Shown: positions 25,627-63,517 of the stretch, piece by piece | Layout of the letters: each line of letters starts with the position of its first letter | Numbering within the stretch: position 1 is the first letter of the stretch | NCBI GenBank assembly: GCA_964017235.1 | Contig: OZ024927.1 | Coordinates: 47,807,293 to 47,871,292 of the forward strand | Reading direction: 5' to 3' | Length of the DNA: 64,000 nucleotides | Origin: Sabellastarte sp. h YS-2021 | Taxonomy: Eukaryota > Annelida > Polychaeta > Sabellida > Sabellidae | Notes under the pieces: generated by a model | Seen by the model: only the letters and a program-made list of their open reading frames with translations | The model's database searches: none | What the model was told of the DNA's origin: nothing | Program-made: the position numbers and the translations under genes

Positions 25627-28600
25627 CTATTTAGGAGGGTTAAACTGTGACTGCCAGTGGGACTGAGCAAACAGGTGTTGTTCATCAGTCAACTGTGACA
25701 AATGTTGTGACATATCTGCAGAATACTTGCTGGCTGGTGGTGATCTGCCCAGTGCTTCTGCCATTGCTCTAATATAGTGTGGTCTGTTACCACAACAAAT
25801 CCCCATGTACTGAACACCCAGCTCCTTCAGCACCATTGTAAAATTGGTGATGGCGGAACGTGAACAAAGCCAGGAATCCAAGTCTTCTGGAAATGACCGC
25901 TCACCTGAAATGGATAATTATAGATATGCCAGACATATCCCTAACAAGATTTGTGATGTTTAGGTTGCACCAACTATATTAACACAGTCTGTAGAACTAT
26001 GGTTAAAAAACTCACATATTACATCATATATGATGGAATAGTTCAGTAACTAACTTATATCTAAATTATGTTTACATTATGGGTAGTTTTAGCTTTCTTA
26101 TTTATGTCCCACCAACACATGATCAAGCCAGGAGAGGATTCCAAGTTGGAAAACCAAGTCATCGTCTGCAACAAATGACATTTGAAAGATTAGAGTCTAT
26201 ACCTTGTGCTTACAGTTTGGGGGAAGAGCAGGAATAAATGTAGAAGTACTATTTATGTGTTAAATGTTTATGCAAGTTTATGGCATTGACACTGTATAAA
26301 TATAGGAGATTGCATACCAGTAGCCTGATCTCTGAGTTCCTGCATACAAGTGGCTTCAGATGTTGTTCTGTATGGCACAGGTAGGCATGCAATCGGACCC
26401 TTTAAATACCAAGAAATATTTTTTTGTAATATCATATCACATGATTGGTAAAGGTGCACAATTTTTGGTTTATGTCATTGTGTTTACCTTGCACTTTTGC
26501 CTGATTTCTTTAATAACAGGGAGAATAGATTGGGGACCTCTGAAACAGTTGATACCCACTACATCAGCTCCAAGGTTCTCCAACTCTCTACAGGCATCTC
26601 CAAAACTCATTGAGTCCTTGCCCTGAGTGCGGTTATATTGTGATGGCGCAAATGTTACCACAGAAGGTATACCTTTAAACATTAAATAGAACAAATGCAT
26701 TCAGTTCATATTGTATGCATGTTGAATAACAAAATTTACAAATGAGGAATATCCCATTTGTTGGAATGATATTTATGAAAAAAAACATTAATTGTTTTAA
26801 ATTAATCACATCATGATTAGGTGCATTATATTCCCTATTTGTTCCTGTAAAATTGATCTATTTGTTCTCTTTATGGGAATGAATTTTGACAAAATAGTTT
26901 CCTCTGCCTTCCAAACTACCCATCGTGATATTGACTGTACAGTATTAAAAGTGATGTAAAACCCCAAATAGATAAATAAACTACCTGGTGCATAATCCTG
27001 GATGCATTTCAGTGCTAATGCTGCTTCACCAAAATGTTCAAATGTTTCAGCAATGATGAAATCTGCCTTTGCGTCAGTAGCCCATATAATTTGTTCCTGT
27101 TAAAAATAATAACTAAATTCTATTGGTATTTCTGTGGTATTAATTAAACTGTCAGTGCCAGTTTATTTCCAAAATATATATACAATATGTTTTTCTTCTC
27201 TTTGAATCTTTAAAATATATCTTGAGTTCAAATGGCAAAAAGTTTTTAAAATCTGTTTTTCTTATTTTGGACAATTCCCTCCAAACTTACTCTGACTCAT
27301 AATGTATATTGAAAATATATCACTAAACTATGTAAGCTAGAAACCTTGAACATCTGTCTGCACTGTTCTTGAGATTTGGTATCTTCTGGGTTATATATTG
27401 TGGTATTAGAGATGTTGCCTGCCAGCAGGGTATTTGTCTTTTCAGCCACTTCTTTAGCAATACATAGGGCATCAATATTTAATTTTCTTAAGTCATTTTC
27501 TCTTCCAATCAGCCTCAGCTTCTCTCTGTGACCATAGTACTAAAAACACACATAACTGATTTTCATTATTTGATGGAATATTTTGAAGCAGAAATAAACT
27601 ATTTCTGTTATTTTTATGAGTCATGATCTTATTTTTTATTAAGATCAAAAGGTGAAAGCTGTATGTGTAGCAAGGGAAGAAGAATATGGTAAAGATAGTA
27701 ACTAATACATCATTGCATATATATCAACACTCCACTATTTACTATCAAAACTGTCTTATACACATTAAAAGTTCCGGTTTAAATTTTTACTGGCTAAAAA
27801 TGTTAGAAGATGTGGTTTGCAAAAGCTTACATCCCACCCTGTCGACATAACTCAAACATAATTTTGAATATGGGATAGTTTTGCATGGTTTGGTTGGAAG
27901 GGTGATTAAAGGCAGCATTTTTTATGCTCTGTAGCATCATATCATGATTATAACTATTGATAGTGAATATAAAATATCAATTCCTTTAATTTTGTTTCTT
28001 TTGAAATAGTAATTATTCCAAATTTATTACTGTAAAAGCTTCCACTACATCACTTCCGCAGTGTACAAACTCTTCATGCAGATTTCGGACCAGATGAGGA
28101 TATTCTATCACTACTTCAGGAACAAAAGCCCCTGCTTTGAGATAACCACGCCTTTCAAATTCAAAGAGGTAACCTTCAGCACAGATAATATGCTCCCCTG
28201 CCTGCAACCTCTCCCGTAAACCTAGACACATGACAAAATTGGGTTTATTCAGTATTTTTAACATTTGACATTTGTAGGGTTTTACATCCCATTCAATAGC
28301 CATTTTGGACAGGTCTTCAGTATGGAAGCTTTGGGGGGTGTACCTACATGGAGATGACAGCCAGTGAAAAGATGCCGAACTTGCTAACCATGAGGCCACT
28401 GAAGAGTGTTACCATTTGAGTCTTCTCTTTCACCACTCCAGATATTTTTTGAGCTTTTTCATCCCTTCAAGGTTATCCTCATATTGGTACATGCCTCTAA
28501 CACATATGATATGTTGTGTTTGATCCAAATTGAAAACTTTTGTGTTTAAATGAAGGGCAAATAATTGTACAAGCAACAACCAATTTTAAGTCCCTTGCCC

Positions 28601-29163
28601 ATGTTATGGTGAAGTGTAGAAAACATGACTTTGATCCATTCGTTGTGAATTTTAGAAACCAACAAAAATAGATTTTAACAAAAAAATTGTTGATTGTACT
28701 AATATTCAGTTAGATTAATGTTGTGTGTTTTATTTTTTCAACTTTCATTTCATTAACTGGAGGTTTGGATATACACATTTTAAATTTAAAGCAGTAAATT
28801 AAATGATTCATAATATCTTGAATACACGAAGTAGAACAATGGTAATAAAGTAATAACACTGATACAAAACCTCCAATAGCAAATACATTTCTTTTGTACA
28901 AAGCACCCTGTGTAGTTAAAATGTGTTGATATCTTTAAAGGTTGCTAAAATTAAACCTTGATTGATTAACTATTACATTATGCATACAACTAGTTTGTTG
29001 CCACCATCTGTGAAACCATTCTTTGCGAAAGGTCTGATTTTTCTAACTTTAGTTATAGAACATAATTATAAATGTATTTGCACTAATTGTTGTTGTTGTA
29101 ACACTAATTTGTACTGGTATATGATACATTAAAGTGAAAATACCAACCTTTTCTGTTAGCCAT
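25627..29163 (-). CDS. BHMT: Betaine--homocysteine S-methyltransferase-like, copy A
   Basis: Zinc-dependent methyltransferase family that moves a methyl group to homocysteine to make methionine, normally in the cytosol. Seven coding exons on the minus strand, all with AG/GT borders: 29,148-29,163; 28,031-28,221; 27,345-27,539; 26,985-27,096; 26,488-26,672; 26,318-26,399; 25,627-25,904. They join in frame to 352 residues plus TAG. The start is ATG GCT AAC in a 16-nt exon. Family marks: LRERLQAGE and RGYLKAG near the N-terminus, FIIAETFEH (Glu151), VVGINC (zinc ligand Cys214) and YMGICCG (Cys297, Cys298). Against human BHMT, Asp26 aligns with Ala20, Trp44 with Phe38 and Tyr160 with Thr152, and the C-terminal extension of human BHMT (406 residues) is absent. 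Substrate may therefore not be betaine. No stops or shifts seen; probably functional. Confidence 0.9.
26895..26978 (+). repeat. SINE family 1 tail fragment
   Basis: Contains TTTCCTCTGCCTTCCAAACT, a GTGATATTGACTGTACAGTA stretch and the GTAAAACCCCAAATA tail of family 1. The tRNA head is missing. It lies in intron 4 of copy A, directly beside the donor of exon 4. Confidence 0.65.
28276..28405 (-). repeat. SINE family 2 in intron 1 of copy A
   Basis: The minus strand reads CAGTGGCCTCATGGTTAGCA (box A like) and ends in a GGGATGTAAAACC tail. The same SINE lies at the same place in copy B (42,237-42,358) and a third copy is at 56,850-56,995. Confidence 0.7.
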
Positions 29164-29334
29164 TTTAGTTATGCAAACAATTTCAGACTTGTCTTTAAAT
29201 GTCAATTTCAATCAAAACCAGATGATAATCTCTCTATATTGCAGTCTGATATGGTTTGCTATTTGTGTTACACACAGTAACAAATAGTCAGATGTTATCA
29301 ATCACATGTTGCCATATAAGAAAAGTGTGTTATC

Positions 29335-29362
29335 TATATAGCCTTGTTTCAGCCCAGCCAAT
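29335..29362 (-). promoter_or_regulatory. Possible core promoter of copy A
   Basis: On the minus strand an ATTGG (inverted CCAAT, 29,358-29,362) is followed about 18 nt later by GGCTATATAGAT (TATATA at 29,335-29,340), roughly 175 nt before the ATG. Copy B has the same arrangement with TATATT. Conservation may only reflect recent duplication; no transcript evidence. Confidence 0.35.
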
Positions 29363-29364
29363 TC

Positions 29365-29709
29365 AAATATATGTCCAATAATAATTTTTTTTCATATTTG
29401 GTTTATGTTTCTTAAATTACTGAAAACCCTTTTTGTAAAAGGCTTCTGATCCAATACACTGAGATATTTGTTTACGGTTGACCTTGGTACAATACATAGC
29501 ATCTTGAACAAATACCATTTGTCACAATGTTTCAGTTTCTGACCTTTTTAGTATGACCTTTATCCTTTAACATCAGAGTGCAAGAGTGTGCTTCTGATTG
29601 TGCAAATGGATTTTATAAATATGGGACATTGTCCATTTCTCTTTCATAGCCTGACCTTTTTAGTATGACCTTTTGATTGTGGCAGAACATGGTTCTGCAA
29701 GAGTAATTG
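29365..29709. other. Upstream flank of copy A
   Basis: The part next to the gene resembles the copy B upstream DNA to about 29,500 (GTTTATGTTTCT, AAAAGGCTTCTGATCCAATA). Beyond that no feature is recognised. Confidence 0.45.
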
Positions 29710-31140
29710 GAATTTAAGATTTCAACCTTGGCCTTGGAATCCTTTCTTCAAAATTTATGCTATAAAGTTCCAGAGCATTTTGACTGGCCGGCACACCTTG
29801 TGAGGCTAGGGGACTAGAAACAGGTGATTGTAAAACCTGAGAGATTTTACATTTTGTACTCTTTCTATTGCGTTCTTTGACAGAAGAGACTGGATACAAG
29901 ATGTCATAGCTAGATTGATGGGCCTTATGACCTCAGTGAATCAGAGGGAACTCATTTTGGACTGGTGATGAATGGTAGAATGTAACCATTGGCAAGATTG
30001 TTTAACACATTGTTTGAGCATTTGTTTGTTTGCCTGTCTCTTCTGAAAGAGCAGAGGAGACCTCCTACTGATAGACTAAGGGAGGCTTAAAAAGTCATTG
30101 GGAGGAGGGGTTTCCATGGCCTCATCCCTTTGTGTGAGGTCGAAAATGACCACTGGAGCCTCTGCAATTCAATTTCACCATAACTGGGGAAAATGATGGT
30201 TACTGCTTGGAATGGTTTGACCCCCATAGGGGTGTTTCTTGTAGGAGTCTCTTAGTTGTGAGGATTGTGTTATGGCTGATTTGACAGGGCCTAAACCCTA
30301 AGTGTTTTTATGGGTGGATTGAGGAGGAACTCTTGTCCCTCCTTAACTAATTGTGAATGGAGTAAAGGAGAGAGACAGAATGGGGAACTCCTAAGTTCTA
30401 AAGATCTGGTATCTCTCCTGAATTCCCCATAGTGTATAAGTCTCTCTGGAGAGTGGGCTAAGATGTTACTTGACAGGCTAAGGAACTCTGTTAGATAAGG
30501 ATCCTCTTATACAGGATATCTAGTCACAGGTCTTTCCATAATCTTTGGCTGCTGGGGATTATTTTTTATTTTCAGGGCACCCTTGAGTCTGAACTGTCCT
30601 GGAAACTAGCTCTGAGATTTTGCATTGCCTGGAGCTCAAATTCTTGACTTCCAGTAGGGAACCTAGCCCTTAGGGGGCCCAGAGTGACTAGGAGAGATAC
30701 AGATTTTGTAATTTTGAAATTGTCCTCAAAACAAGGTTGTCCCAATATACCCCCTAGTTGAACCAGGGGTTTTAGAGAATAATTTTCAGGTAAATTAATG
30801 GCCTGAAAGTCCTGTCTAAATTTATCAAAGCATCTTTAGCTGAGGATTGAGAGGGAGCATAGCTGAAGGGCCCCTTGGCGTAAGCTCCTGTTGGCCTGCT
30901 ACATCATTCAGAGCCCAGACTATGGAGGACCTAGGCATACTGTCCCTGGTAAGGGAGATTAAAAAAACTGGCTAAGTTTCAATGTCCTCGGAATATGGTC
31001 AGGGCCAAGTCAGGCAATCAACTTTCCAATAAAATACAGAGTCCGGGTCTGAGTGATGGACCTTGTTCAGAAGAAGCCCTCTTGGTCTTGAGGACTTTTT
31101 GACTTTCACCGAAGCCTCAAATAAGTGACATTTAAAAGGC
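29710..31140 (-). mobile_element. Unidentified retroelement-like remnant
   Basis: Base composition is clearly less AT-rich than the neighbours. Conceptual minus-strand translation gives protein-like pieces in several frames: SSAKDALINLD, KPLVQLGGILGQPCFEDNFK, ERLIHYGEFRRDTRSLELRS and SSPFCLSPLLHSQLVKEGQE. The longest intact frame (29,714-29,899) is only 61 residues. This pattern is what a decayed retroelement gag-like region would look like, but I do not recognise the family and no polymerase motif is visible. Confidence 0.4.
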
Positions 31141-31207
31141 TTGTGTTCGTTTAATCCAAGTGTATGTTAGGATTGTTCGGAATTCTGATCTGAAACCATC
31201 ATCCGAA

Positions 31208-31365
31208 CTGCTCAGATTTTAGATCTGAACAATCGTCCGAACATATGGTCGGATGGTAGTACTTGGGTGAACATGCAAGTCAAGTTGAACTGCTCGGAGT
31301 TTAGATCCGAACAATAATCAGAACATCCAAACATGTTCGGATGGTTAGTACTTGGATGATTATAA
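31208..31365 (+). repeat. Two-copy tandem repeat with internal inverted motifs
   Basis: Two units of about 80 nt: each has CTGCTC(A/G)GA, TTTAGATC(T/C)GAACAAT, a CCGAACAT..GGATGG segment and TAGTACTTGG(G/A)TGA. Within each, ATGTTCGGAT-like sequence pairs with its complement, so each unit can fold. Confidence 0.65.
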
Positions 31366-31602
31366 GTCAAACTGTTGGGATTGCAATTGTGCATTAAATA
31401 TTCATCTATTTACAAAGACTTTTTAGTAAAATATTTTAAATATTTTATATATTCATATAAAAACTTTATTTAATCTTTAATAAATGCAAAGAAAAAGGGG
31501 GGCGACTATGCTAATGCCAAACCAAGGTTTTGCAAGTACCTGGTGTCTAGACGAAGATGATTGAACAAGGCCTTTTATATACATTTTGTATTTAAACCCT
31601 TC

Positions 31603-31700
31603 AAAAGGTCAAATAGTGTAGCAGATTGGGGTTAAAATATTTTATTTTATTGTTTTATTTCGACAGGTAAAGGTCCTGCAATAAGCTACATACATGATTC
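31603..31700 (+). repeat. Direct repeat flanking inverted block, left
   Basis: Shares AAACCCTT, GGTCAAATA(G/A)TGTA and AGAT..GGGTTAAAATATTT-like blocks with 33,242-33,345. The pair brackets the inverted block at 31,790-33,240. Confidence 0.5.
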
Positions 31701-31789
31701 ATAGTCTCTCAGCACTTCCTGTCTAGACAATGACTTCACCGAACGAGTTCCCAAGGATTCTCTTCGGAGTCAGCTTCCATGCTTTATTT

Positions 31790-33240
31790 CATATATAAAC
31801 CCAGACGGGCGACCCTTCCATTGTCTCAACTCTCCATTATTTTTGCATAATGAAGAGTTACCACTACATTATTTTCTAACAGTGGATTGTGGTTAAGTTC
31901 AATGGCCAGTCTGCCAAGAACAAAAGGGTATTTGCCAGTCATCCTCAGCACAATGCATTCAATATTGAAATGTTTTCACAACTTCTTTCATATTAATTAG
32001 TTCAGTGGGTACATTTTCAAAGTCTTTTCAATTCTGAATGACATTCAGTGTTCATAGAAAAATACCTCATGGAAAATGCTACCTTGAAAAAGACAAGTAA
32101 TTTAATTTGTAAAGTTGGATATTTTTTAATTCTTTGCATTTCTTTACAATCTGACTTTACAATAATCTTCTGTGAACTTAATCAAAGAAGCAGCTAACTT
32201 TCAAACAAACTCACTGTAAAAATCTAACCCGGCATACTATATTAAAAGGAGTGTTTTTAGTGCCTCAAAATTTACTCAACTAAAATGAGAAAAAAAACGT
32301 AGTGCAAAAATGCAGTTCTGAAATGCATTACCTCTGGGTTTAAATTTGATTTAAATTTTCAATGTTTTTAAGTTCAAAACAAAGATTTTAATTTATCTTA
32401 TTACAGTTTGTTATATACTTCTAAAATGATACACTGTGGTTGAAATGATTTTTTTTTTTTCTTAATGTTGTGGGGTTAATTTCATAGGAGGTATCACTGG
32501 AATACAAAATGTGGAGCAGGCATTCTTCCTATGAGGCTTTTTTCCAGGAGACAATATTTCCAGGAGGCATTTTTCCTTGATTCCAAATTAAGAGACAAAA
32601 AAGCACACAAAATAAAAATCTTGAGAAACCCAAAAACTTCAACACAAAATAAAACAAGTAAGTAATTCTCCAGTTTCTAGTACTTTCAATGCCTGAAATA
32701 CAAAAATAATAGTTTACTGTATTAAAACAAGCACAGATTAATAAAGTGACACGAAACACTCACCACAACAAATTATCCACAGCATTGTTAAATAAGCAGT
32801 CTAATTTTTTTTCTGGAAAGTGGTTTCTGTAAGTCACAGATCCATATTTTATTGATTATCATTATCCATGGTTAAATGGATCAGATTATGTTAAAACTTT
32901 TTAAGCTTTATCCAAAATTATATTTTTCCATAAAGGAAAAGAAGTGGTACACATGGTGAAACAATGTTGATTGTGTATTGAGATAAAAAAACAACCATAG
33001 AACTAATTTAATGAAAGCTCCATTTGGTATGCACACCAAAGGAAACATTGCAAAGATTGTCTAGGTTGATCATTTGGTGCAAGGTGTTTAATTAATAAAT
33101 TGGTTTTAATTTACAGGGTTTTATAATAGATAATTGCCTCGTGGCGCTTCCATTATGCAAACTTAATGACCCTTCGGCCCGTTCGGGGCCTCAGGCCATT
33201 AAGTTTACATAATGGAGCGCCACTTGGCCATTATCTATAT
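31790..33240 (-). repeat. Inverted copy of the 34.9-37.2 kb / 49.1-50.3 kb block
   Basis: Its reverse complement matches 49,090-50,330 and 34,890-37,240 over most of its length: GTTTCACCATGTGTA, TGCATTGTGCT, ACTAATTAATAT.., ACTCTCCATTATGCAAAAAT and the closing foldback. One end is a near-palindrome at 33,123-33,240 (arms with GATAATTGCC..GTGGCGCTTCCATTATG), the other a short hairpin at about 31,827-31,861. With 34,890-37,240 it forms a large inverted repeat around the decayed BHMT copy D'. Confidence 0.7.
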
Positions 33241-33241
33241 A

Positions 33242-33345
33242 TTAAACCCTTAAACTGGTCAAATAATGTACCAGATAGGGAGTAAACCCTTAAAATATTT
33301 ATTTGATTTGATTTCAACAGGCATATATTCCTTTATATAAACTAA
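33242..33345 (+). repeat. Direct repeat flanking inverted block, right
   Basis: Partner of 31,603-31,700; see that entry. Diverged by small indels. Confidence 0.5.
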
Positions 33346-33864
33346 ACACTCGAGTCATTGTCACCCCCTCTTTGCTTTACAACATGAACCCGGAAGTACC
33401 AAAGACAAGCATATCCATATGAAAAAATAAACTTCTTTCCTTGCAATAAAATATATGTACATATCGCAGCCAACAAGAAAAGAAGGAAGAGTGATGAAGA
33501 ATGCTACAAGGGTACAACCTGGGGATTCAGTTTACACTAAACGTCTATTTTTCTTGGACGTTGGCCAGATGCCTGTAGCTTCCTGACATAGTATTCAGTT
33601 CCACATGGTAAGCTATTGTAGCGCAATAAAATGTTAGTTTTTAATGTTACAAAGTAAAGTATCAGAACTATACAGTTTTAAGCCATTTGGGCTACATTTC
33701 ACCAATATGTTGGCCTTGATATCCAAAACTGTACCATATGTAACCACATGTATAACCATGGTGCAAGTCTTTTTGAGATAAAGATGTTAATATATTAATG
33801 ATATTTTGAACAGTAATCTGCAAATACATAATTTCAGGGAAAAACTTGTAACATTGTACCTAAA
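33346..33864. other. Spacer, partly duplicated
   Basis: From about 33,620 it resembles 44,010-44,190 (TTTTAAGCCATTTGGGCTAC and flanks), marking the left limit of the segment shared by D' and D. No gene seen. Confidence 0.45.
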
Positions 33865-34758
33865 CGTGTGGTCTGTTAACACAGCAAATCCCATATACTG
33901 CACACCTAACTTTTTCAGTTCCTTGGTGAAAACAGTGATGTTAGAACAAGAACAAGCCAGTAATCTAAATGATCTGAAAATGACTGATCATCTGTAATGT
34001 TAATATACAATTCATTGCAGACATTTTAGAGACACATCTCAGAACCATTCGTGTCATGAACCGAAAAGTGTATGGCTTAATTGTACCAACTATATAACCT
34101 CATTCCAAAAAGAACTTTTAAGGCAATACTGGTTTATGTTTGAACTATTGTGATGCTGTAGTGAGTAACATTGACTGAAATATGTAGCGCTGCCCAATTC
34201 TTAATATTTGTTAATTCAAGACAGGTAGTGTAAAGGTTACTATTCACTTCCTGTTTGTGCATATTTTAATATTTGGACACATATTGATAATTTAAATCTA
34301 AATCAATAGACACTCTTATGATTGTTCACTTAAATTGATATTGTAAAGATCAATGAATTCAATGTAAAATAGTATCACTTTGTTTATGATTCAAATCATA
34401 TATTTTTGACAGAAACACTGCAATAAAGGCACAGATGAAACACATCAGCACATGACATAAATACATGCTTTACAGGTCCATGATATTGATAATAACTTTG
34501 TCTTCTGCATTTTTACATAAGTACAACAATAATTGTGCTATACTGCACAAATAAATTACATGCTTACAAAGAAAAAATGGTTGTTATAGTCTAGAACATT
34601 AAATATTAATGTCATGTTTGTCCATTATATTCCATCATGCATGAAATAGTTTTCGTTCTATGGCATAGCATTTTTAATACTTGTACTAATTCTGGTTAGA
34701 ACTCAAGTTAGTTTCAGTGACTTAAGGCTCTAGAATACCAACCATTGTGGTTGGTCAT
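33865..34758 (-). pseudogene. BHMT-like remnant D' (first and last exon pieces only)
   Basis: Two pieces of a BHMT-like gene on the minus strand. The 16-nt first coding exon is at 34,743-34,758 (ATG ACC AAC CAC AAT G, followed by a GT donor). The 5' part of the last exon is at 33,865-33,991, still with its AG acceptor, matching SFxxDLDxWL...ELKKLGVQYMG but frameshifted and cut before the end. Exons 2-6 are gone: only 750 nt separate the pieces, against more than 3 kb in copies A and B. It cannot encode an enzyme. The same internal loss is seen in D, so the loss predates their duplication. Confidence 0.8.
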
Positions 34759-35009
34759 GTCAGATGTCAGGTGTGTCTTTCAACAACAAACTAAGAGATC
34801 AATGAGTTGTACAATGACCTGGCATTTGTGACTTCTGTGACTTTATATATGCATGTCAAAGGTATCCTTCCTTTGGCTGCAGTTATTATATAGATAATGG
34901 CCAAGTGGTGCTTCATTATGTTATCTTAATGGCCTACGAGGCCCGAAGGGCTGAAGAGCCATTAAGTTTAAAATTCATCTTCACCACAAGTAGTGTCTCA
35001 CGTCAGATT

Positions 35010-35232
35010 TTTGTTTATTTGGGGTTTTACGTCGCTTTCAACACTGTACAGGTCATATCACGACGGGTAGTTGGAAGGGCAGAGGAAACCAGTACATATA
35101 GTTCGCTAGGGTTCTGTACTGTAAACTGCCGACCAGCGGCAAGCAACTACCAGCTTTCCCACTTACAGCCATGACGGGGATCGAACCCCGGCCGCAGAGG
35201 TGGGAGGCGAGAGTGTTGCCACCGTGGCCCCC
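35010..35232 (-). repeat. tRNA-derived SINE, family 1, best copy
   Basis: The minus strand starts GGCCACGGTGGCAACACTCT (box A like) with a textbook box B, GGGTTCGATCCCC, followed by the family body (CTGGTAGTTGCTTGCCGCTG, TACTGGTTTCCTCTGCCC) and tail GCGACGTAAAACCCCAAATA. It is absent from the paralogous block at 49.5 kb, so it inserted after that duplication. Confidence 0.85.
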
Positions 35233-35353
35233 GTCTCACGTCAGAAGTATATAACAAAATGTAATAAGATCGATTAAAATCCATGTTTTGAATTCAAAAA
35301 TTTTAAATTTAAATCAAATCTAAATCCAGTACTAATGCATATCAGCACTACAT

Positions 35354-36618
35354 GACACAAGGGTCTCTTAAATGTCAACCAGTCTGCTTATAAGAGTTCC
35401 CACTCCACTGAAACCGCATTGTTGAAGATTCAAAATGATATAGCTTTCTCAGTGGACTCAGGAAAGGCAGTGGCCCTGACATTATTAGACCTGTCAGCGG
35501 CGTTTGACACTATTGACCATTTCCTTTTATATGATTGCTTGCATGACTGGTTTGGTCTAGATGGCACTGTCTTGTTGTGGATCAAATTGTACCTTTCAAA
35601 CACAAAACAAAAAATTAAAATAGGTGATAGTTTCTCTGAGGTGGTAATTCTCCCTTTCGGAGTCCCCCAAGGCTCTGTATTGGGTCCTCTCCTTTTTACC
35701 CTTTACACTAGTCCCCTCAGTCAAGTTATTTCTAAATTCAATGTTACTCATCACCTATATGCTGATGACACCCAGATCTACTTAGCAGTTGACTCCAGGA
35801 ACTTTGATGCTAGCATGGGAGAGCTAACCGAGTGTCTCAAGTCAGTACAGGAGTGGATGGTTGGTGTTAAGCTAAAACTAAACCCAGAAAAAAACGAATT
35901 TATCATCATAGGTCAAAAAGCCACCAGAGAGTTGCCAAGGTTTGCCGAGCATGTTACTATCATCTTCGTGATTTGCGATGAATTCGCAAATTTCTAAGTA
36001 ATAAAACTATAATACTTCAGGAAAATGCTATGGTCAGTAGTCGTCTGGACTACTGTAACTCTTTACTTTATGGGGTAAGCAAGTCCAACATAGCTAAGCT
36101 ATGGAGAGTCCAGAATGCTCTTTGCCGCATCATCTTCAGACTTGACAAAATGAGTCATGTTACACCCTTTCTGAAAAAACTCCACTGGCTTCCAATTCAA
36201 CATCGTATCCTTTTTAAGTATAATCTCCTGGTATTCAAGGCTATCAATCTTTCACAGCCCCCATATCTCTCAGCTTTAATAAGATCGAGCAGTCTTACTC
36301 GCGGCAACAGACTATCTGTCTCCTCAACCCGCCCCAAGAAGCACATAGGCAGGCGAGGCTTTGCAGTAGCTGCACCAGCTGAATGGAACAAGCTGCCACA
36401 AACTGTTAGATCTGAGCAAACAATAGATCGTTTCAGAAGCCAGCTAAAGACACACTTGTTTAGGCTGGCATACCCCCCACCTTAGTTATACCCGGGCGGG
36501 CGCTTTTTAGATGTCGACCCATGCCTGTCTCTGGACTCTCCCTTCTTGGACATAAGTGCATTAGAGGATTGGTATCAATTTTGCCCTATATAAATCCTAC
36601 TATTATTATTATTATTAT
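35354..36618 (+). mobile_element. 5'-truncated LINE with target-site duplication
   Basis: Encodes the C-terminal half of a CR1/L2-like ORF2. The first frame (35,419-35,997) has LLDLSAAFDTIDH, FGVPQGSVLGPLLFTLYTSP and the catalytic HLYADDTQIY. After an internal deletion and shift near 35,940 the second frame (36,030-36,485) has MVSSRLDYCNSLLYG, LKKLHWLPI and the closing FRSQLKTHLFRLAYPPP. The 3' end is a run of ATT repeats. TACAT occurs at both edges (35,349-35,353 and 36,619-36,623) and once in the paralogous block near 49,650, which lacks the LINE. It is dead through truncation. Confidence 0.88.
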
Positions 36619-46584: not shown

Positions 46585-46664
46585 CCAGGAATCCAAGTCA
46601 TCTGAAAATGACTGATTGCCTGTAATATGAATATACAATTCATTACATTTTAGAAACATACAGA

Positions 46665-51279: not shown

Positions 51280-51365
51280 TTAGCAATTTGATTCTATTCT
51301 ATTTTGGACCTTTATAGTGCTTAATCTCAGCTCAAAGCAGACTCTAAGGCACAACACCAGAGACC
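51280..51365 (-). mobile_element. LINE 3' UTR stub
   Basis: The minus strand reads GTTGTGCCTTAGAGTCTGCT and GATTAAGCACTATAAAGGTC followed by an AATAGAATAGAAT tail, matching the 3' UTR of the LINE at 48,575-48,640. Extreme 5' truncation. Confidence 0.7.
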
Positions 51366-52552: not shown

Positions 52553-52786
52553 TTATTTATTTATTTGGGGTTTTACATCGCTTTCAACACTGTACAGGTC
52601 ATATCACGATGGGTGGTTGGAAGGGCAGAGGAAACCAGTACATACAGTTCATCAGGGTTTTGTACTGTAAATTGCCCAACGGCAAGCAACTACCAGCTTT
52701 CCCACTTGAGGCCGTGCCGGGAACCAAACCCCTTTCTCAGAGGTGGGAGGTGAGAGTGTTACCACTCTGCCACTGTGGTCCTGACA
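52553..52786 (-). repeat. tRNA-derived SINE, family 1
   Basis: Same body as the 35.0 kb copy (CTGGTAGTTGCTTGCCGTTG, TACTGGTTTCCTCTGCCC, GCGATGTAAAACCCCAAATA). The head is degenerate (box B reads GGTTTGGTTCCC). It lies directly 5' of the DIRS copy. Confidence 0.8.
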
Positions 52787-52840
52787 AGCGACTTAGACAA
52801 CAGGTAGACTTAAAAGAATCAGGCAAGTCCAAGTCTAAGA

Positions 52841-53379
52841 GTGGGGAACGAAATTGTCTGGGTCAAGAGACAGGTTCCCTGGCCCAAGAACTTTGTTTTA
52901 GGTGGCAATAACAAGAGAAGAATGTCTGGTGATGCATTAAATTGGTGTCAGTGGGTAGTTGGGTTTGCAACCATCCAACGGAGGAGCAAAATTTACATAC
53001 AAAAAATGCAATGCTTCAATATCTAAGCGAAATTATGGAGGATGCTAATGATTTTGGCTGGCAATCAGCAAAGGCCTCTCATGCTGTGTTATTGTGCTAG
53101 ATGGAGGATGGGAAGGTTGAGTGGCATGAAACCCATAAATTAGATATCATCAGAAGGGCACATGTACAGGAGTTAAATTCAAAATCAACCAAATTTTATG
53201 CAAAACCAACCACTGTCTGTCGCTTTCATCAGAAGGGGTTATGCCATAATCAGAGGAACCATGAAACTTGGGGAACCTTCTTCAAACATATTTGTGCAAC
53301 ATGTTTCACTATGGTGAAGGAAAAAAGGTGCATGGCTAAAGACCGCAACATATCCTCCAGAGTTTCAAGAAACGAGTAG
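52841..53379 (+). pseudogene. DIRS gag-like protein remnant (copy 3)
   Basis: Frames contain VPWPKNFVLGGNNKRRMSGD and NWCQWVVGFATI, matching 14,016-14,200 of copy 2, then after a stop at 53,098 MEDGKVEWHETHKLDIIRRA and the zinc-binding CRFHQKGLCHNQRNHE..HICATC. Frame breaks at about 52,980-53,100. Confidence 0.7.
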
Positions 53380-54192
53380 TGCACTGCCAAAGTACAGTGC
53401 CAAAGTGTAATGAAAATGTAAATAGTAAAGAATTGTCCTGTATAATGTATTATGCCAGTAGAGTGTTGTACATACAAAAAAGACTTTATAATGGTAGAAG
53501 TAATAACTGTAAAGCTGACTGGACAAGGTTCATTAGAAGGTCAAATGTAGAAGTCGTCGGTTTGAATCTGACCAAAGTAAAGGTTGATCCTCGCCAGGTT
53601 AGCAAAAACACTGTAAATAGTCTGGTAAATACATTAAATACATGTCAGGCTGTACAGATGAGAAAACCTACCTTGATAGGTCAGATGGAAGGTGTGTCAA
53701 TATTCAAATTCAAGGAAGCCAAATCCTTCCAAAAAATATCCACGTAATTCAGTTCAGAATTTTGGGTCCCACTTTACAACAGGTTTGAATCTATCAATTT
53801 GTTGGATGATTCGGATTTGGGTAGTGATGCAAATGCTATGTTAGTCCCAACTAAAGCACAACTTAAACACACGGTGTGTCAGTACCCAGCATCAGTACAC
53901 AGTGCAAAAAGACCCCCAGTGACAAAGTACTTTGTAAATCGTCAGCTGATACTATTTTGTACAGAGTCCAAAGTCCAAATAAGGAACAGGACAAATGTCA
54001 AAAACCTGTCAAATTTAGCTCAAACGTATTTTTGCCAAATGATAAATATGAATTGGTGATGCAGGTTAGAAATAAGAACAAAGATAGATTACAACTGGAG
54101 AAATCAGACCCTACATATAAAAATGGGCAGAACAGAATCCTAACTAGTATAGGTTCATCCCTTTAGGTCTTCTGGTCTTACCGGAATTAAAT

Positions 54193-55420
54193 ATGAAAAA
54201 TTTCAGGGGCACGGATCCGATTAAATTATACGACATAGCAAGGAATCAAGATACATTTAACTTCAAGTCAAGTGCAAGTCAAGTCGAAATTGGTTCCAGA
54301 TATTTTAGAAAAAAAATTTTAGATGGGTGTTGGGATAAACAGTTGTTATATCTTATCAGATACAGATTTTCTTTAAACTTTGACAGGAATTCTAAATTGG
54401 GTCAAAACACCAAAAAATCAGATCGACTTTAATGTTCTCACAAGATGTCGGGGATACCATAAATAAAGAAGAAATTGAATTTGGAGTTATTGTTGGACCT
54501 TTTAATCATCCACCTTTTAGCAAATTTCACACTTTCCCATTTATGGCAAGGGAGAAGCCAGGTGGTCCCCATAGGCGGGTCACCATGGACCTCAGTTTTC
54601 CACATGGTTTGGCAGTAAATTCTAACATTATCAAAGACTCATAGCTAGGCACTGAATTTGTGTTAACCCTTCCTTCTATAGATCAGATTACAAAGTTAAA
54701 ATTTATATAAACCGAGCTTTCAGACATGTCAAAATTGATCCTAGGGATTATTTCTTACTTGGACTAAGGCATAAAAATTACTGCTTCAATACATGTCTAA
54801 CCTGGCAAGGCAAAACAAAATGTAGTAAGAAAGACCTTCAATCCCTCTTGGGCTCGCTTTTATATATATCTAAGTGTGTCAGAAGCTCAAGATTTTTCTT
54901 AAACAGAATGCTAGACACCTTAAGGGCTCATTTTTGCACGGAAGAAATTAATTTGAATGATAATTTTCATAGAGACCTAAATTGGTTCATAAAATTTTTG
55001 CCAGCTTTCAATGGCACAGCCTTCTTTAATCATTCACCAATCCAAATGACAATTGAATTAGATGCCTGCTTGATGGGATTGGGTGCAATCTGCAAGAATC
55101 AAGTATATACTATAAAAAATCCAAAATTTTTTGAAAATTGCACCGTAGTTTATTTAGAAATGCTCCACATTCTGGTAGCGTTATGCATTTGGGCTAGTCA
55201 GTGGGCAGCCAAAAATATACTACTTAAATGTGACAATCAGGCAGTGGTCTGAGTACTCAACTCAGACTATACTCAACACCTGACCTTGACAGCCATGGCC
55301 AGGGATATTAACATGATTTGGGCTGTACACAATAAAGAGTTGCAGGTTATACATATATTGGGTTCGAACAATAAGATAACAGATTTGCTGTCAAGATGGC
55401 AAGATATGCTGTCAAGATAT
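54193..55420 (+). pseudogene. DIRS RT and RNase H remnant (copy 3)
   Basis: Finger pieces: CWDKQLLYLIRYRFSLNFDR, EIEFGVIVGPFNHPPF and FMAREKPGGPHRRVTMDLSF. Then HVKIDPRDYFLLGLRHKNYC, after which the catalytic palm is missing. Thumb and RNase H: LLGSLLYISKCVRSSRFFLN, IELDACLMGLGAI (first Asp), YLEMLHILVAL (Glu), LLKCDNQAVV (Asp) and after a stop VIHILGSNNKITDLLSRW. Inactive. Confidence 0.8.
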
Positions 55421-55510
55421 CAAAAATCCATTTTGGTTGAATATACCAGATAATATTCTTAATTTGGATTTGTCTTTCTAAATTTAGGTCTTCCCCAAAC
55501 AGCCAGGCAT

Positions 55511-55970
55511 TTGGCTCTGAAAGAGACTACAAGAGCACACCATGCCTTCAGACCAGCCACACAGGCCTCCTACCTCAGGAAATTCCATCTTTTTGTAGCC
55601 TATTGCTGCTTAATTAACATACAGTTAAATGATGTAACACCACTGGTTGCTTTCTCATTTTGGGAATTTCTGACAGAAAATGGAGTCTCCAATACATCTA
55701 TTCCTAATTACATTCAGCAGTCAAAGCCAATCTGGCATTATACAGCCTGTCCATGTCACCTTTTTGGATCAAAGAGTTGCATATTTTCAATGTTCATTGA
55801 CCGTCAAAAAGCCATTCTCACCAATCAATCTGTCTATTCAAAACATCCAGAATCATGGCACCTGGACATCTCACAGTGTTTAGAGGTATATTGTACAAGA
55901 TCATAATGCCTCTGAGGAAGTGGGTGATTTCTCCGAAAGATTATCTGCCCCACAACGCGTCTAATTTCTA
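55511..55970 (+). pseudogene. DIRS tyrosine recombinase remnant (copy 3)
   Basis: The N-terminal domain reads HHAFRPATQASYLRKFHLFV and VAFSFWEFLTENGVSNTSI. The central catalytic part is deleted and the reading jumps to IQNIQNHGTWTSHSV (55,840-55,883), the second His block just before the catalytic Tyr, in another frame. Confidence 0.75.
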
Positions 55971-55990
55971 GTTGGGGCTTGGTGGAGGAT

Positions 55991-56849
55991 GGGCATCTAC
56001 CTCAAATTTGTACACTTTCATATATTTTAATTTAAAATCATGTTTAAAGGTCACCTTTACATTTGGCAATAAGTAAGATGAAGCTTATTCGCAATTTAAG
56101 GCCACCCTAACTCTGTTTAGAACTTTGAAATATGGACCATAATATTGTCATTTTCTTAACATATAGTAAGTAAGTAGTTTTAAAGTTTAATAACCTTAAC
56201 TTATCTACAGGGGGCTTTATACTTAGCTTCTTCAGAAATTTAAGGTGACCTTAAATATGCCTGCTGTAGTATTGAAGCAGAAAATAATAATAAAAAATTT
56301 TATCCTATTTCTGCTTGTCATTCTTGTTCAAATCGTACTGAAATCGTAGTGGCACTGAACAGTGATACATGCACATTCATTCGGAGGCCTCTGCTTGGTA
56401 GCAGAAATCTCGAAAAACAGAATAAATTAACCAATGCAAATTTAATGAGGACAAGAAATGTGTACAATGCTCTTGTTAATAAAATCTTATGTAGAAAAAT
56501 GTGGGAGAGAAAGCCACTTAACAATGACAAAAGAAGATTGGGGGAAGGTGCACATAGTGAACGCCAAAAAGCAGAGCAAGAAAGTTGCCGAAATTAAATA
56601 TTAAGTCTTACTTGACTTTCTGTCATGTGAACAGAAAGTTAATACATTGAATAAAATGTGCCTTTTATGTGTCTATTGTAACATGGCTGAAATTATTTCT
56701 CATATGTTTCATGAACTTCATGAGTTTCTAACACTTTGGTTCTCTGTTTGCCATTGTTTGCCAAGTTAAATGTAATGTTGAAACAAGTGATAGACTGATG
56801 CTCATATATGACAGATAATAAACATTTTTGTATGTCTGTTAAAGCCAAA
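55991..56849. other. DIRS 3' flank and unassigned DNA
   Basis: Up to about 56,260 it resembles the 3' flank of the other plus-strand DIRS copy. A plus-strand frame at 56,349-56,597 is open but matches nothing I know. Confidence 0.4.
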
Positions 56850-56995
56850 GTTGGGGTTTTACATCCCGTCCAACAGCCAGGGTCATATTGGGACAGGTCC
56901 TCAGCATTGCCATTTATGGAACTCGAATCCACAGAGGTGACAGCCTGTATTTAGATGCCAAATTTACCAACCACTAGCTAGGCCACCAAAGGCCT
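56850..56995 (-). repeat. SINE family 2
   Basis: The minus strand starts CTTTGGTGGCCTAGCTAGTG (box A like), includes GTGGATTCGAGTTCC (degenerate box B) and ends GGGATGTAAAACCCCAAC. Same family as the intron 1 SINEs of copies A and B. Confidence 0.7.
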
Positions 56996-57059
56996 CTTTT
57001 TGTATGGCAGTGACAGCTTACAACATTTTTTGTGTACTGAGATCAAATTCTTAGGAAAA

Positions 57060-58365
57060 CTCTACCTTTAAACATAGCAATCTAAAACGGAGATAAAACA
57101 GCATTTAAATTGTTAAAGGGAAGTTTGCAACACTGTTTTACTGGTAACGTTTAATTTATATTCTGGATTGATTATGCATGAATGTAGTACTTCATAATAA
57201 AGAGAGTCATTTCCCAGAGTGCTCAGTATTTCATCTTCTGTAACACAAGCACATTATATATTAATGTAGACTATCATGTAAATTTCATATAGAAGTACAA
57301 TATTTCTGGCAATTATAAATTAAATATGTGAAGTCTTCTGTCATATGTGTATGACCACTTGTACTGCACCCGACAAATGGTTTATACCCTTGCCCTCGTG
57401 CGTCATTTGCTCTGAAAGGGTAAATAAACTTTACTGGGTGTCGGGGAAAGAAATATGTGGTCACTAATGCCCCTTTCAGGGAGTATGTATTTTCATTACA
57501 CACAATGATATATGTGACTATAATAGGAATATGCTTGAATGGCAGCCAAATAATCAGAGATCATATAGATTGTTTTCTGGATACTGTTGCATACCTTTTG
57601 GCCAGAAACTAACAGCATCCTGATATGAGGAATGATGTGGTGCTGCATTGCAGGCTCCCAACAAGCAGGCAAGCCATGTTACAGAGGATTAATTATAGAA
57701 ACCCCATAGATTTAATGTGTCATCACAGTTTAAGTTGAAAGTTTAATAATATATTCAAAATTGATTGGTAGTGATTTTATTTTATTAATTGGTATAAAAT
57801 TTCTACAAATGGACATACTTCTTCCTTTTTGGTCCCATTAACAATGACATAAAACTTAAAATGAGAAAAAATCAAACACAAGAAATATCAAGTGACATAA
57901 AATCTGGGCAAAACCAGCGGAGGAAAAAGGTATTACTGAATGTATATGATGCAAATGTAACCATGAGCATCCTCTTGACATGCCTTTTTAAAAGATGTTT
58001 GTGTGGATCCAGAGGTCACTTGTATCGATTTATTGATGAAATAATGCAAAAAGATGAGATACAGTTTAATGTGGAGGTATATTGGCTCACCCAAAGGAGA
58101 AGTGTTAGTCCCATTAAAACATAACAGTGTCCAGACTTTCCTTAAAATAACTAAACTCCACCGACTTTTGCAGATAAACAATGTTGCTGTTTATGTTATT
58201 TTGTTATCATTTTTCCATGCTAATTATACAAAGAAGTACTAGTACAGTCTTTATAATTTTGTCTTATGAATATATCTGTAAGTCAAAACAAATCATCATG
58301 TGCTATCACAAAACAAAACATTTTCAGATTACAATGCTGTGTACATCCCATATCTTGGTGTCAAC
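57060..58365. repeat. 3' flank of copy C shared with copy B
   Basis: Counterpart of 37,640-38,354, in two matching parts (57,060-57,160 and 57,850-58,365) separated by unrelated DNA. A plus-strand frame (57,861-58,124, 87 residues) crosses the best conserved stretch; its end, EVYWLT, vaguely resembles a hAT transposase block, but the frame is not kept in the copy B version. Confidence 0.6.
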
Positions 58366-61300
58366 CTATTTTGGGGGATTGAACTGGGACTGCCAGTGGG
58401 ACTGAGCAAACAGGTGTTGTTCATCAGTCAGTCTTGAAAAATGCTGTGACATATCTGCCGAGTACTTGCTGGCAGGTGGTGATCTGCCGAGAGCCTCTGC
58501 CATTGCTCTAATATAGTGTGGTCTGTTACCACAACAGATCCCCATGTACTGCACACCTAATTCCTTCAGCTCCCTTGTGAAAGTAGTGATGTTAGAGCGA
58601 GAACAAAGCCAGGAATCCAAGTCTTCCGGAAATGATCGCTCCCCTGTAATAAAAATGTAGAATTCATCAACTTATTATCACATTTGATAATTATTTTGGC
58701 ATTGTAATTAATATTTTCAACACTGTGGTTCTCCAAATTTAAAATAAATATATATACATCATTGTTGCTCAATGCTACATATTTGCTTGAATTCTTTAAT
58801 TTTCTGGTATAGGTTGGCTGTTTAAGTATTTCTATACAGCACAGTTATGTGTTGGACTTGTGGAATGATGATGCAGGAGTCACAATTTTATGCTGATGTT
58901 CCCTATAAAATAATTACGGACTACCCACCAGTAATCTGGTCTCTTAGGTCTTGCATGCAAATGGCATCAGCTGAAGTCCTGTATGGCACAGGTAGACAAG
59001 CAATTGGACCCTTCAAATAAAAATAACATTTTGTATCAAACAGTTGAACTGCTTACAGCTACTTTACGCCAATCATAACATGAAAATCATTATATATACA
59101 TAGTATAGTGTTGAAATTAATTTAGTCATGGATCACCCATGTGATTCAGTAATTTACCTTGCACTTTTGCCTGACCTCTTTGATAACAGGAAGAATAGAT
59201 TGGGGGCCTCTGATGCAGTTAACGCCCACCACATCAGCTCCAAGCTTCTCCAACTCTCTACAGGCATCTCCATAACTCATTGGCTCCTTGCCCTCTGGGC
59301 GTGTTTTGGGTGCCAATGTTATAACTGATGGCATACCTGATAGAAAATATGAAATACATACATTATATTCAATTATTTTATACACATATTTATGTAACTT
59401 CACAAATGAGGTAAAAGACAAAAATTGCAATCTAGTATTACTGATATCAACGTACAACAAATTATCCCTTTCTTTTAATAATCTTTATTCACAGGTGTCT
59501 CATGTTATCAAATTAAGCTGCCATTAATCAATCCTTGATATATTTCTCTTAAAAGCCTTACTTCATTGAATGTTATGTTAATGAAAAATGTAATTTAAGA
59601 TATTGCTTTTGATTAATAATGCAATCAAAAATTATTCAACAGCAACTTTTTGTGATTTATTTAAATTTTTACAATATAGCCACCAAGTTCTATCATCTAA
59701 TGAATTACATGCAAAGCATTACTATAACATATATGTTTTATAATTCTATGGTTATAATTTGGTATATGTGGATGCACAGTGGTTTATATTGAAGAATGCA
59801 GATATAACATGACTTGAAAAAGGTAATAAAATTGACAATAAATCCAATTATCCCCAAACAAAAAAGTATGTGTTGCTATGTTTCTGATCGAATTTATTAA
59901 ATTTCAAAATAATTATAGTTCAAATAGACTTTGCATTAAAGTTACAAATGTATTTAATATTGGTTTTGAGCTACAATAAACAACCTGACCTTCCACACCT
60001 CTGACAAAAAATTACCTGGTGCATAGTCCTGTATACACTTCAATGCTAAGACTGCTTCACCAAAAGCACTGAAAGTTTCAGCAATAATGAAATCTACCTT
60101 TGCATCAAGAGCCCATGCAATTTGTTCCTGTTAATTTAGAAACAGGAAGTGGATAAATGTTATTGGTTTTATTTATCATCAACATAGAAATGTCACATGT
60201 ATATTGTTATCAGTAATTTCAGAACCATTCAGTCCAACAACATTCAAAATGCTTCCCAGTTGTTGTTTGACACGGAATTTCTAAATAAAATGCAGTGGCA
60301 GATCTAGGGGGGTGGGCGTGGAGGGCATTTTTGTCCTTGTCCACACACCCCACCAATCCCCTACACCAAGATCTGTCATTACTAGGCTTAAAAATCTTAA
60401 ATCAAACTGATCAGAAAATGTCAAAAATATTTTCAGTTATTTGGATATGACAGAAGACTTTATGCATCAGAATATAGTTAATCTCAAAATAGTAAAATCA
60501 AAATTGTTCAATGTAGCAGAAAAAGAGTGGAGAGCAGATGTGACATCAAAGCCAAAACTTAGAAATTATGAGATATTTAAAACTGATCTACAGCCAGCCA
60601 ATTATCTTCAAAATTTTATGCCTAAATTTAAAAGATCACTCTTTGCACAATTTAGGCCTGGTGTATTGCCCTTGCGCATAGAAACTGGTCGTTACCACTT
60701 AACCAAGGATCCTAAATCAAAAACTTACAGAAAACTCAATGTAGAAGAACGAACATGCCTGGTTTGCAATATGAATTCAGATGAAATTCACTTTTTATGT
60801 CATTGTCCCATGTATGAAGAACAAAGAAAATTATTGTTTTCTAAAATCAGTTTCCTGGCAAACACAAGTTTACAAAGATTTCTTAAACATGTCTAATGAG
60901 GAACAATTGTCTTTGATATTTAATAATTTTGAAAAACCTCTAATTGTTTATCTTTATGATTCATGGAATATTCGTAAAAAAATTATCAATAAATAAAGAG
61001 CTGAACAAAAGTAAGGAAAAATTGATAATCAGCTTGTGATTTATGTCACGTTGTTATTGTTCTTATAACTATATTAATTTACCATTTTCAAAAAAGTGTT
61101 ATTCCTATAAATAATACCAGTTTGGTCTGTTTTTATTCAGTAATTTCTGTATGTAATACTTTATTGTTATAACAGTATTAAATGTTTATAAACATGTACA
61201 TATTTAATGACTATGTGTGATTATATTATTTTTGTATTGGAAAAACAACCACATGTGAAACTATATTTTTGTACTAAAAGTGACTTATAAGCCCATATGG

Positions 61301-63517
61301 GCTGGGCATTTTAGGTGCATGTCACTATAATAAATGAATAAATAAATAAATATACCTGTTTAAAGTGACAATTATTATACCTGTGTCACTGTCCAGTATC
61401 AAAGGGGATTAGGCTCTTTTGTGTGTGTAGTAAGTCAGGTCTCATTCTCAAACAAACTGAGGATTACATCTTTTGTGGATAACTTTGTTTATAAACCTTT
61501 TTTGTTTACCAGTGTATGTTTAAACATGATATGCAATTTACAAAAATTGGAATCACTCACCCCAATTAATTATTTCTTACGTGACTTCTATGTTTCAGTT
61601 CTAATTTGCTATAGTAGCTATGATAAGATTAAATTGAAAAAAAAAGTTAAATTCTGAAAACGTTTCATCAAATTTAATCAATTGGTTTATGTGTTTTTAA
61701 AGAAAAACAATGAAAGAATCAGTTATTTTAAAATAAAAATGTTAAAGAAAAAATGTGGCATATAAATTTAGATTCAAGTATGTTTCCCTCCATGTTTTAC
61801 AGTCATACCATTGTTTATTATGGGAAGCCCCTTTGAAGTTTATTTTAGGTTTTGTGTATTTGTAATCATGTCAGTAAACTGCTGTATGGGTCTGACAATT
61901 GAGTGTAGAAAAACCCCCAATAGAAAAAAAACTGCAGAAAAAGTCACAGTAGAAAACTAGTGTATGAACAAATAATCCCAGTAGAAAATACCCAAACCTT
62001 TGTTACATGGTAACTACTTGACAGTGCTTGTGTAAATGTGTTATGTACCATTTAAATAGAGGGCTTTCATAGAGGTATTTTCTACTGCAGGGTTTTACAG
62101 AGGCTTTTTTCTGCTAGAGGCTTTTTCAGTTTACTTGGCCATCAGTATCATATACATGTATAAAGTGTTTTGATAAGATTGGTATTTTGCCCTCCCTGTC
62201 CCATAAAATGTACAGCATTTTGTCCCCCCTTGCAATTTTGACTGGCGTTTTGTCCCCCAGTATTTTGTCCACTGACATTTTGTCCATGCACCATGTGATA
62301 TGTCCTGTTACAGAATGTCCAAGTATGAAATATCCATACCCGCGACAACCCATGCCCCCCTTTCGGGAAATCCTGTATCTGCCCCTGAAATGTAAGCTAA
62401 GATTGTTTTCAGACATTATAGCCTAGTTGTAGATGTGCAACATAGAAACCTTGAATATGTGTCTGCATTCCTCTTGAGATTTGGGATCCTCTGGGTTGTA
62501 TATTGTAGTATTACAAATGTTGCCTGCCAGAAGAGTATTGGTCTTATCAGCCACTTCTTTAGCAATGCGTAGGGCATCAACATTTAGTTTTTTCAAGTCA
62601 TTTTCTCTTCCAATCAGCTTTAGTTTTTCTCTGTGCCCATAGTACTAAAAATAGACATCAATTACACTTAATGGGTTATTTAACTTTTTGGTCAAATATG
62701 CATAGTTTATCATTTTAATATATCAACATTTTTGTGACAATGATAACTCAGAAACTATAACATAATTTATTACAATGACAGTTTTTATTTACTCATTGCA
62801 GACAAACATGAAGTGTTAGATGACTTTATAATTTGCATAAATTCATCACTTAGGCTAATGTGCACTAAGAGAGCTACAGATAACATTAATCAAACAAATG
62901 CCAATATCTTTCCAAATTTTGAATATTTTTACAGTCAGTGTTTGCATACAACTGCATGTCCTTGTGTAACCTTACGCCCTGCCATCTCCAGATAGTCAAG
63001 ACAGATTTAAAGGCAAAATTATTCTTAAAACTGTTTGACCATTGGCAATATTCACAAATGGGATCAGGAATAGATGGGCCAAAAAATCAGCTTTAGTTTG
63101 GTATTATACTATGGTTAGTTAAATTGATTTTTGTTGATATTGTGCTTGTCCCATTTATATAAATAACCCCAGATATTTTGTGTGAGATAATATTCTATAA
63201 CTTGTATTGCTAAACATAGGGAATATGTCGTGCTGATCTATTGACTGATCATCAGAGCAAGAACCTCAATTGTGAATTACCAAAAATGTACTTCATTGAT
63301 TCATTAACTTTGGCAAAGTTTATTACCGTAAAAGCTTCCACTACATCACTTCCACAGTGAACAAAATGTTCATGCATATTTCTGACCAGATGAGGATATT
63401 CTATCACAACTTCAGGAACAAAAGCCCCTGCTTTGAGATAACCAAGCCTTTCAAATTCAAACAGGTAACCCTCAGCACAGATAATATGCTCCCCTGCCTG
63501 CAACCTCTCCCGTAAAC
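58366..63517 (-). CDS. BHMT: Betaine--homocysteine S-methyltransferase-like, copy C (partial)
   Basis: Six coding exons on the minus strand: 63,327-63,517; 62,450-62,644; 60,016-60,127; 59,158-59,336; 58,929-59,010; 58,366-58,643. All splice in frame with AG/GT borders. The 16-nt first exon is not seen before the window edge and should lie beyond 64,000. Exon 5 is 179 nt, two codons shorter than in A and B. The zinc ligands are present (VVGVNC and GICCG). ETFEH of copy A reads ETFSA here. Exons 2-6 are the most diverged of the three copies, while the last exon is almost identical to copy B. Intron 3 (2.3 kb) holds an antisense LINE and small repeats. No stops or shifts; probably a working gene. 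Confidence 0.88.
60292..60382. repeat. Small inverted-repeat element
   Basis: GCAGTGGCAGATCTAGGGGG at the left and CCAAGATCTGTCATTAC at the right are reverse complements with mismatches; the interior is a G-rich then C-rich tract. A miniature element of about 90 nt in intron 3 of copy C. Confidence 0.55.
60430..61352 (+). mobile_element. LINE 3' end with C-terminal zinc-binding domain
   Basis: The plus-strand frame 60,441-60,896 (151 residues) reads [54 protein letters not shown] and [14 protein letters not shown]. This is the Cx2C...Hx3Cx2Y-type C-terminal domain of a LINE ORF2; a frameshift at about 60,890 leads to the last residues ending near 60,996. The 3' UTR contains GCCCATATGGGCTGGGC and ends in an ATAAATGAATAAATAAATAA tail. 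It is antisense within intron 3 of BHMT-like copy C and 5'-truncated. Confidence 0.8.
61900..62130. repeat. Inverted repeat with AGAAAA words
   Basis: CCCAGTAGAAAATACC (near 61,978) faces GGTATTTTCTACTG (near 62,073), and AAAACTGCAGAAAAAG faces CTTTTTTCTGCTAG. The arms are imperfect. Probably a small foldback element. Confidence 0.5.
62165..62392 (-). repeat. Repeat with reiterated GGACAAAATG motif
   Basis: On the minus strand the sequence starts CAGGGGCAGATACAGGATTT and then has GGACAAAATG-like units repeated at least four times (TGGACAAAATGTCAGTGG, GGACAAAATACTGG, GGGACAAAACGCCAG, GGGACAAAATGC). Both strands are open, which explains the overlapping frames, but it is repeat DNA. Confidence 0.6.

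Follow-up and report, generated by a model that had tools for sequence, protein, structure and literature searches.

The window considered here is a stretch of 64,000 nucleotides from the annelid Sabellastarte sp., corresponding to bases 47,807,293-47,871,292 of contig C1 (OZ024927.1) in a genome of 1.79 Gb. It is taken from one genome assembly and contains no N. The mitochondrial COI of this genome, on contig C647, has an open frame when read with genetic codes 5, 9 or 13 but not with code 2, and might resemble that of a bivalve. The window carries an array of BHMT-like genes on the minus strand in the order A, D', B, D, C, where A, B and C are intact and the remnants D' and D are interposed between them. 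A previous description, made from the letters of this DNA alone (the sequence-only reading), had proposed five BHMT-like units on one strand that alternate between intact genes and remnants. This layout is confirmed, with exons 2-7 of C in the window and its likely exon 1 beyond it. None of the literature titles listed describes the array, which is no proof of its absence from print. Unless stated otherwise, positions below are those of the window, and genes and exons are on the minus strand.

Gene A (25627-29163) has seven coding exons: 29148-29163, 28031-28221, 27345-27539, 26985-27096, 26488-26672, 26318-26399 and 25627-25904. Gene B (38355-43205) has its exons at 43190-43205, 41990-42180, 41316-41510, 40919-41030, 40416-40600, 40180-40261 and 38355-38632. 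In both genes, the exons measure 16, 191, 195, 112, 185, 82 and 278 bases (stop codon counted), the introns are of the GT-AG type, and the frame is open. Gene C occupies 58366-63517 of the window, with exons 2-7 at 63327-63517, 62450-62644, 60016-60127, 59158-59336 (179 bases), 58929-59010 and 58366-58643; its likely exon 1, at the window-equivalent position 68385-68400, lies 4.4 kb beyond the right edge and is the sole pattern match in 16 kb. The proteins of A and C, the two that were scanned, match the Pfam family S-methyl_trans (PF02574) with 131.3 bits (E = 8e-38) and 131.4 bits (E = 7.6e-38), respectively, at a cut-off of 22. The A protein has 352 amino acids, and its best match among the solved structures in PDB is 1umy_A (BHMT1, E = 1.1e-46).

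The two remnants retain the first and the last coding exon. D' (33866-34758) consists of exon 1 at 34743-34758 and a truncated, frameshifted exon 7 at 33866-33991, and D (45826-48943) consists of exon 1 at 48928-48943 and two pieces of exon 7, at 46585-46620 and 45826-46041. Exon 1 is ATGACCAACAGCAAAG in D and ATGACCAACCACAATG in D'; both begin with ATG, end in G and are followed by GTTGGTA, and exon 7 has an AG acceptor in both remnants. The damage to exon 7 of D comprises a splitting insert, small deletions, a stop codon and a frameshift, and exon 7 of D' contains frameshifts and ends after 42 codons, with more than half of it gone. When the peptides of exons 2-5 were compared with the remnants, no match was better than E = 4.3, and the whole protein of exons 2-7 (exon 6 included) matched exon 7 pieces only, at E up to 0.1. 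These searches agree with the earlier statement that exons 2-6 are missing from both remnants. The further claim that the loss took place once, and that its product was then duplicated together with its neighbours, is supported by the common arrangement of exon 1 and exon 7, by the alignable spacer between them (34036-34175 and 34267-34417 with 48646-48917), and by the single branch that D and D' form in the tree of exon 7 (90/93, not starred).

Over about 20-30 bases, the 3' ends of the intron of D and of intron 6 in B and C can be aligned. Exons 2-6 of D therefore probably disappeared through a deletion that began in intron 1 and ended in intron 6; on the intron 1 side, no such alignment was found past the donor. 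Since introns 1 and 6 are both in phase 1, such a deletion would have left exons 1 and 7 mutually in frame. Terminal changes at codon positions 1, 2 and 3 number 4/3/3 in D and 2/2/4 in D', which is about even in these small samples, and the changes that both have in common on their stem (2/1/4 over 117 columns) are too few to judge constraint before the duplication. Between D and C, differences at 245 sites are distributed as 9/10/21, a pattern that, short of a formal test, hints at past constraint on D. Both remnants now appear to be dead.

A comparison of 33.3-40.2 kb with 43.6-59.0 kb yielded 19 high-scoring segment pairs (HSPs), 12 of which are collinear and tie 33626-38902 to 44014-58913, in accordance with the order of matches first reported for 33.6-38.9 kb and 44.0-58.9 kb. 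The seven off-diagonal HSPs reflect exon 7 paralogy (three), an inverted repeat match (one) and interspersed elements (three); the strong match between 35010-35222 and 52556-52765 is an interspersed element off the diagonal. The possibility that the match at 36.6-37.6 kb is mere repeat similarity was considered and rejected. Its core, 49093-50326, is an interspersed element (1887 first-look candidates in the genome, 40 of them scored), but the alignment extends past 50348 to 50757, where the D' copy is the only genome match among the candidates scored, and the block homology therefore stands. At the other end of the block, 37721-38902 of B matches the 3' side of C at 84-88%; elsewhere in the genome, this segment matched copies of exon 7, the 130-bp element at 38076-38208 that is private to B, and two short stretches at its left edge (40 of 62 candidates scored). 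On the basis of the HSPs, divergence and site patterns, the first copy of the tandem duplication extends from intron 6 of A to intron 6 of B (26280-38902) and the second from intron 6 of B to intron 6 of C (40141-58913). The earlier suggestion that each duplicated block contains a dead copy and part of a live one is thereby supported.

Much of the sequence between the collinear HSPs consists of private inserts. D' has a short interspersed element with a 13-bp target duplication (GTCTCACGTCAGA), for which D has the empty site, and another short element is inserted in exon 7 of D. Inserts bearing a reverse transcriptase (RT) domain (PF00078) are found in D' (E = 7e-24) and in D (about 46659-48645, E = 5e-30), and a 6.3-kb insert in D gives a weak tyrosine-recombinase-type match (PF13102, E = 8e-4, under the cut-off). 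Six insert sites were inspected: one has the 13-bp target duplication and three have repeats of 4-5 bp, and the sister site is empty for all four; neither the RT insert of D nor the 6.3-kb insert has a clear target duplication at its site. These data bear on the possibility that the array is an assembly artefact, in which haplotypes were left unmerged or alleles were misjoined. Tandem arrays are indeed prone to misassembly. However, unmerged haplotypes are very unlikely in view of a raw noncoding divergence of 15-16% and of private inserts in both copies (for four of the six inspected, there is a target repeat and the sister site is empty), and no N interrupts the window; we find an artefact of any of these kinds scarcely credible. 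As a separate observation, 31792-33213 is an inverted copy of the interspersed repeat at 49.1-50.3 kb, and it sits in a stretch of about 4 kb, between the A promoter and D', for which the B side has no equivalent.

The middle gene B is a chimera joined in intron 6, a property that the sequence-only reading missed and that is new here. It combines sequence of its two neighbours and switches from one to the other once: exons 2-6 are A-like and exon 7 is C-like. In exons 2-6 and the nearby intron (alignable columns), B agrees only with A at 234 sites and only with C at 24, and A agrees only with C at 36; in exon 7 and its flanks, there are 6, 77 and 16 such sites, respectively. For the first two classes, 234:24 versus 6:77, Fisher's test gives p = 3.4e-47. 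We also considered whether C and the A/B lineage had exchanged sequence by conversion near exon 2, but B sides with A there by 40:5, as elsewhere in the body. The junction lies within 38903-40140 of intron 6 of B: A-like sequence stops at about 40141, which corresponds to approximately 38 bases into intron 6 of A, and C-like sequence starts at 38902, which corresponds to approximately 16 bases into intron 6 of C. Most of what lies between is an interspersed element at 38957-39979 with inverted ends of about 60 bp (38957-39018 and 39919-39979), and repeat similarity continues to about 40139. The first look at the genome gave 1249 candidates for this element, 40 of which were scored, and its minus-strand frame 39322-39179 may be a GIY-YIG fragment.

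The age of the duplicated parts was estimated from noncoding sequence as Kimura two-parameter (K2P) distances. The distance is 0.183 [0.158-0.209] between the bodies of A and B, 0.176 [0.147-0.207] between D' and D, 0.182 [0.158-0.206] for the 36.6-37.6 kb segment, and 0.165 [0.136-0.202] between the 3' sides of B and C, and these four segments are homogeneous (chi-square 1.07, p = 0.79, with counts rounded). By comparison, the distance is 0.433 between A and C and 0.419 between the bodies of B and C, both taken from the alignable, better-conserved parts only. Coding distances (0.039 for exons 1-6 of A and B, 0.026 for exon 7 of B and C) are far below the noncoding level. The mosaic structure of B, combined with the like neutral divergence across the unit, leads us to propose that an ancestral array A-D-C was duplicated in tandem once, and we consider it highly probable that this event, an unequal crossover in intron 6, explains the alternation of intact and dead copies. 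The earlier view that the array grew by blocks is retained insofar as a block was duplicated; repeated growth is unneeded, because the divergence is homogeneous and one duplication is enough.

The proposed sequence of events is as follows. The ancestral array would have had the order A-D-C on the minus strand, with D already lacking exons 2-6. Unequal crossover would have taken place between the sixth introns of A and C, close to the donor of exon 6, giving the product A, D', B, D, C, in which B has the promoter and exons 1-6 of A and exon 7 and the 3' flank of C. D would have been doubled as a passenger, and each copy would afterwards have gained its private inserts. A single event of this kind predicts the same age for the A-B body, for D'-D and for the 3' side of B and C. 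We infer that the exchange was homologous, i.e. non-allelic homologous recombination, rather than another mechanism of tandem duplication.

Two other histories could produce a similar arrangement. In the first, B is a plain duplicate of A whose exon 7 and 3' flank were later overwritten by gene conversion from C. Tandem paralogues often undergo gene conversion, and B and C are 97.5% alike in exon 7; however, the C-like stretch continues collinearly for 5.3 kb, D' included, at the divergence of the A-B body, so that the conversion tract must take in a pseudogene and match the age of the duplication. We judge this history improbable. In the second, the body of A was duplicated in one event and D with the 3' end of C was copied separately at a similar time. 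Equal divergence cannot part events that are close in time, but the two products would have to abut in register in intron 6 with the frame open, an outcome that one event gives directly, and we regard two events as very improbable.

Several points weigh against a single unequal crossover. The exact junction is masked by the inserted element, and some stretches between collinear HSPs, e.g. 34418-34731 and 57142-57861, fall outside the inserts described above. The remaining points come from exon phylogeny, which had been proposed as a check and proved only partly informative. A and B are sisters in the tree of the body (90/94), and D and D' stay on one branch, but exon 7 yields no resolved order for A, B, C and D. 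The grouping of A with B is weak in single-exon trees (41/31 for exon 2, 57/45 for exon 5), and approximately unbiased (AU) tests reject neither B+C in the body (p = 0.097) nor A+B in exon 7 (p = 0.20). Since the exon trees, whose outgroup is distant, and the AU tests are weak, we dropped phylogeny as the main proof and rely on the three-way site patterns and the neutral distances.

Chimeric genes formed by unequal crossover between tandem paralogues are known as the Lepore and anti-Lepore haemoglobin type. The present case is similar in that the junction lies in corresponding introns of neighbouring paralogues and, as in anti-Lepore, the hybrid stands between its parents. It differs in being old (about 0.18 substitutions per noncoding site) and in that the exchange also duplicated a pseudogene that had been gutted beforehand. 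As in the chimeric gene duplicates of Katju, in the sections of that article consulted (PMC3449122), B derives from two donor genes; here, by contrast, the donors are paralogues joined in register, and the coding sequence is whole.

It is conceivable, though unlikely in our estimation, that D and D' are not fully dead and act as alternative promoters and first exons for B and A. D lies 2.6 kb upstream of B and D' lies 4.7 kb upstream of A on the same strand, and each has a TATA-like box, a start codon, a frame and a splice donor. With its phase 1 end, the remnant exon 1 could be joined by splicing to exon 2 of the gene that follows, with the frame preserved. If true, such a role would explain why exon 1 is readable despite the decay of exon 7. 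Difference counts in windows of 40, 60 and 100 across the block revealed no extra conservation of the promoter and exon 1 of D and D': around exon 1 of D, the most conserved windows show 2, 3 and 9 differences, and the lowest counts of the block (0, 1 and 6) fall elsewhere, beside exon 7, and are themselves unremarkable (permutation P = 0.41, 0.16 and 0.45). Constraint on this zone was therefore dropped as a sign of remnant function.

The array belongs to a wider cluster. With the A protein as query and E up to 0.01, the genome contains 45 matches, and all but two of them (43) are on the same contig. Four further copies (E-H) with recognisable exons 2-7 were located by tblastn on this chromosome within about 315 kb, at contig positions 47,787,660-47,791,394, 47,764,115-47,768,697 and 47,754,176-47,758,373 on the minus strand and 47,560,762-47,571,878 on the plus strand. 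The last two, in opposite orientation and about 182 kb apart, are 69-91% alike in pieces and form an inverted duplication. No further remnants were found by tblastn in 179 kb and 16 kb, with 47.574-47.752 Mb covered by the whole-genome search only. An unplaced contig of 16 kb (C158) contains coding sequence that reads like an orthodox BHMT (IGVNC, GYHT), unlike the family of the cluster. Elsewhere in the window, there are decayed retroelement frames at 9374-12675 (minus strand), 13583-16993 (plus) and 53101-55903 (plus), which resemble DIRS-type elements. In a domain scan that matched six of nine frames to a family, the RT domain PF00078 was found at 10777-11169 and the tyrosine-recombinase N-terminal domain (PF13495/PF13102) at 15983-16525 and, weakly, at 55463-55903.

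With regard to function, we take C217, C299 and C300 to be the zinc-ligand cysteines of human BHMT. A, B and C retain all three; in the four further copies, the first is kept, and the CC pair is seen in the exon 7 translations. Presumably, A, B and C are expressed zinc-dependent homocysteine methyltransferases under purifying selection. The donor-site residues of human BHMT are, we assume, D26, W44, Y77, E159 and Y160. In all seven copies, D26 is replaced by A, W44 by F, and Y160 by T or S, with Y77 and E159 kept, and it would be unsafe to suppose that betaine donates the methyl group. As a guess, S-methylmethionine or dimethylsulfoniopropionate may be candidates. BHMT2 is a monomer of 363 amino acids that uses S-methylmethionine and cannot use betaine, according to the sections of PMC4516251 consulted, in which a word search found no mention of W44 or Y160; further literature searches found none either. 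Like the mammalian BHMT/BHMT2 pair described there, the present genes are tandem members of a homocysteine S-methyltransferase family with short proteins; the differences are the three intact genes, two remnants, four further copies and one chimera found here, and the altered donor residues.

The mechanism proposed for this locus is a textbook one, and the worth of the locus lies in how fully the event is recorded there. Neutral sequence is enough to read the tandem duplication as a single event, and the switch is narrowed to one intron. The locus shows how a single exchange, without repeated rounds of growth, can place live and dead genes in alternation, here within a BHMT-like cluster that is expanded and whose donor-site residues are altered.

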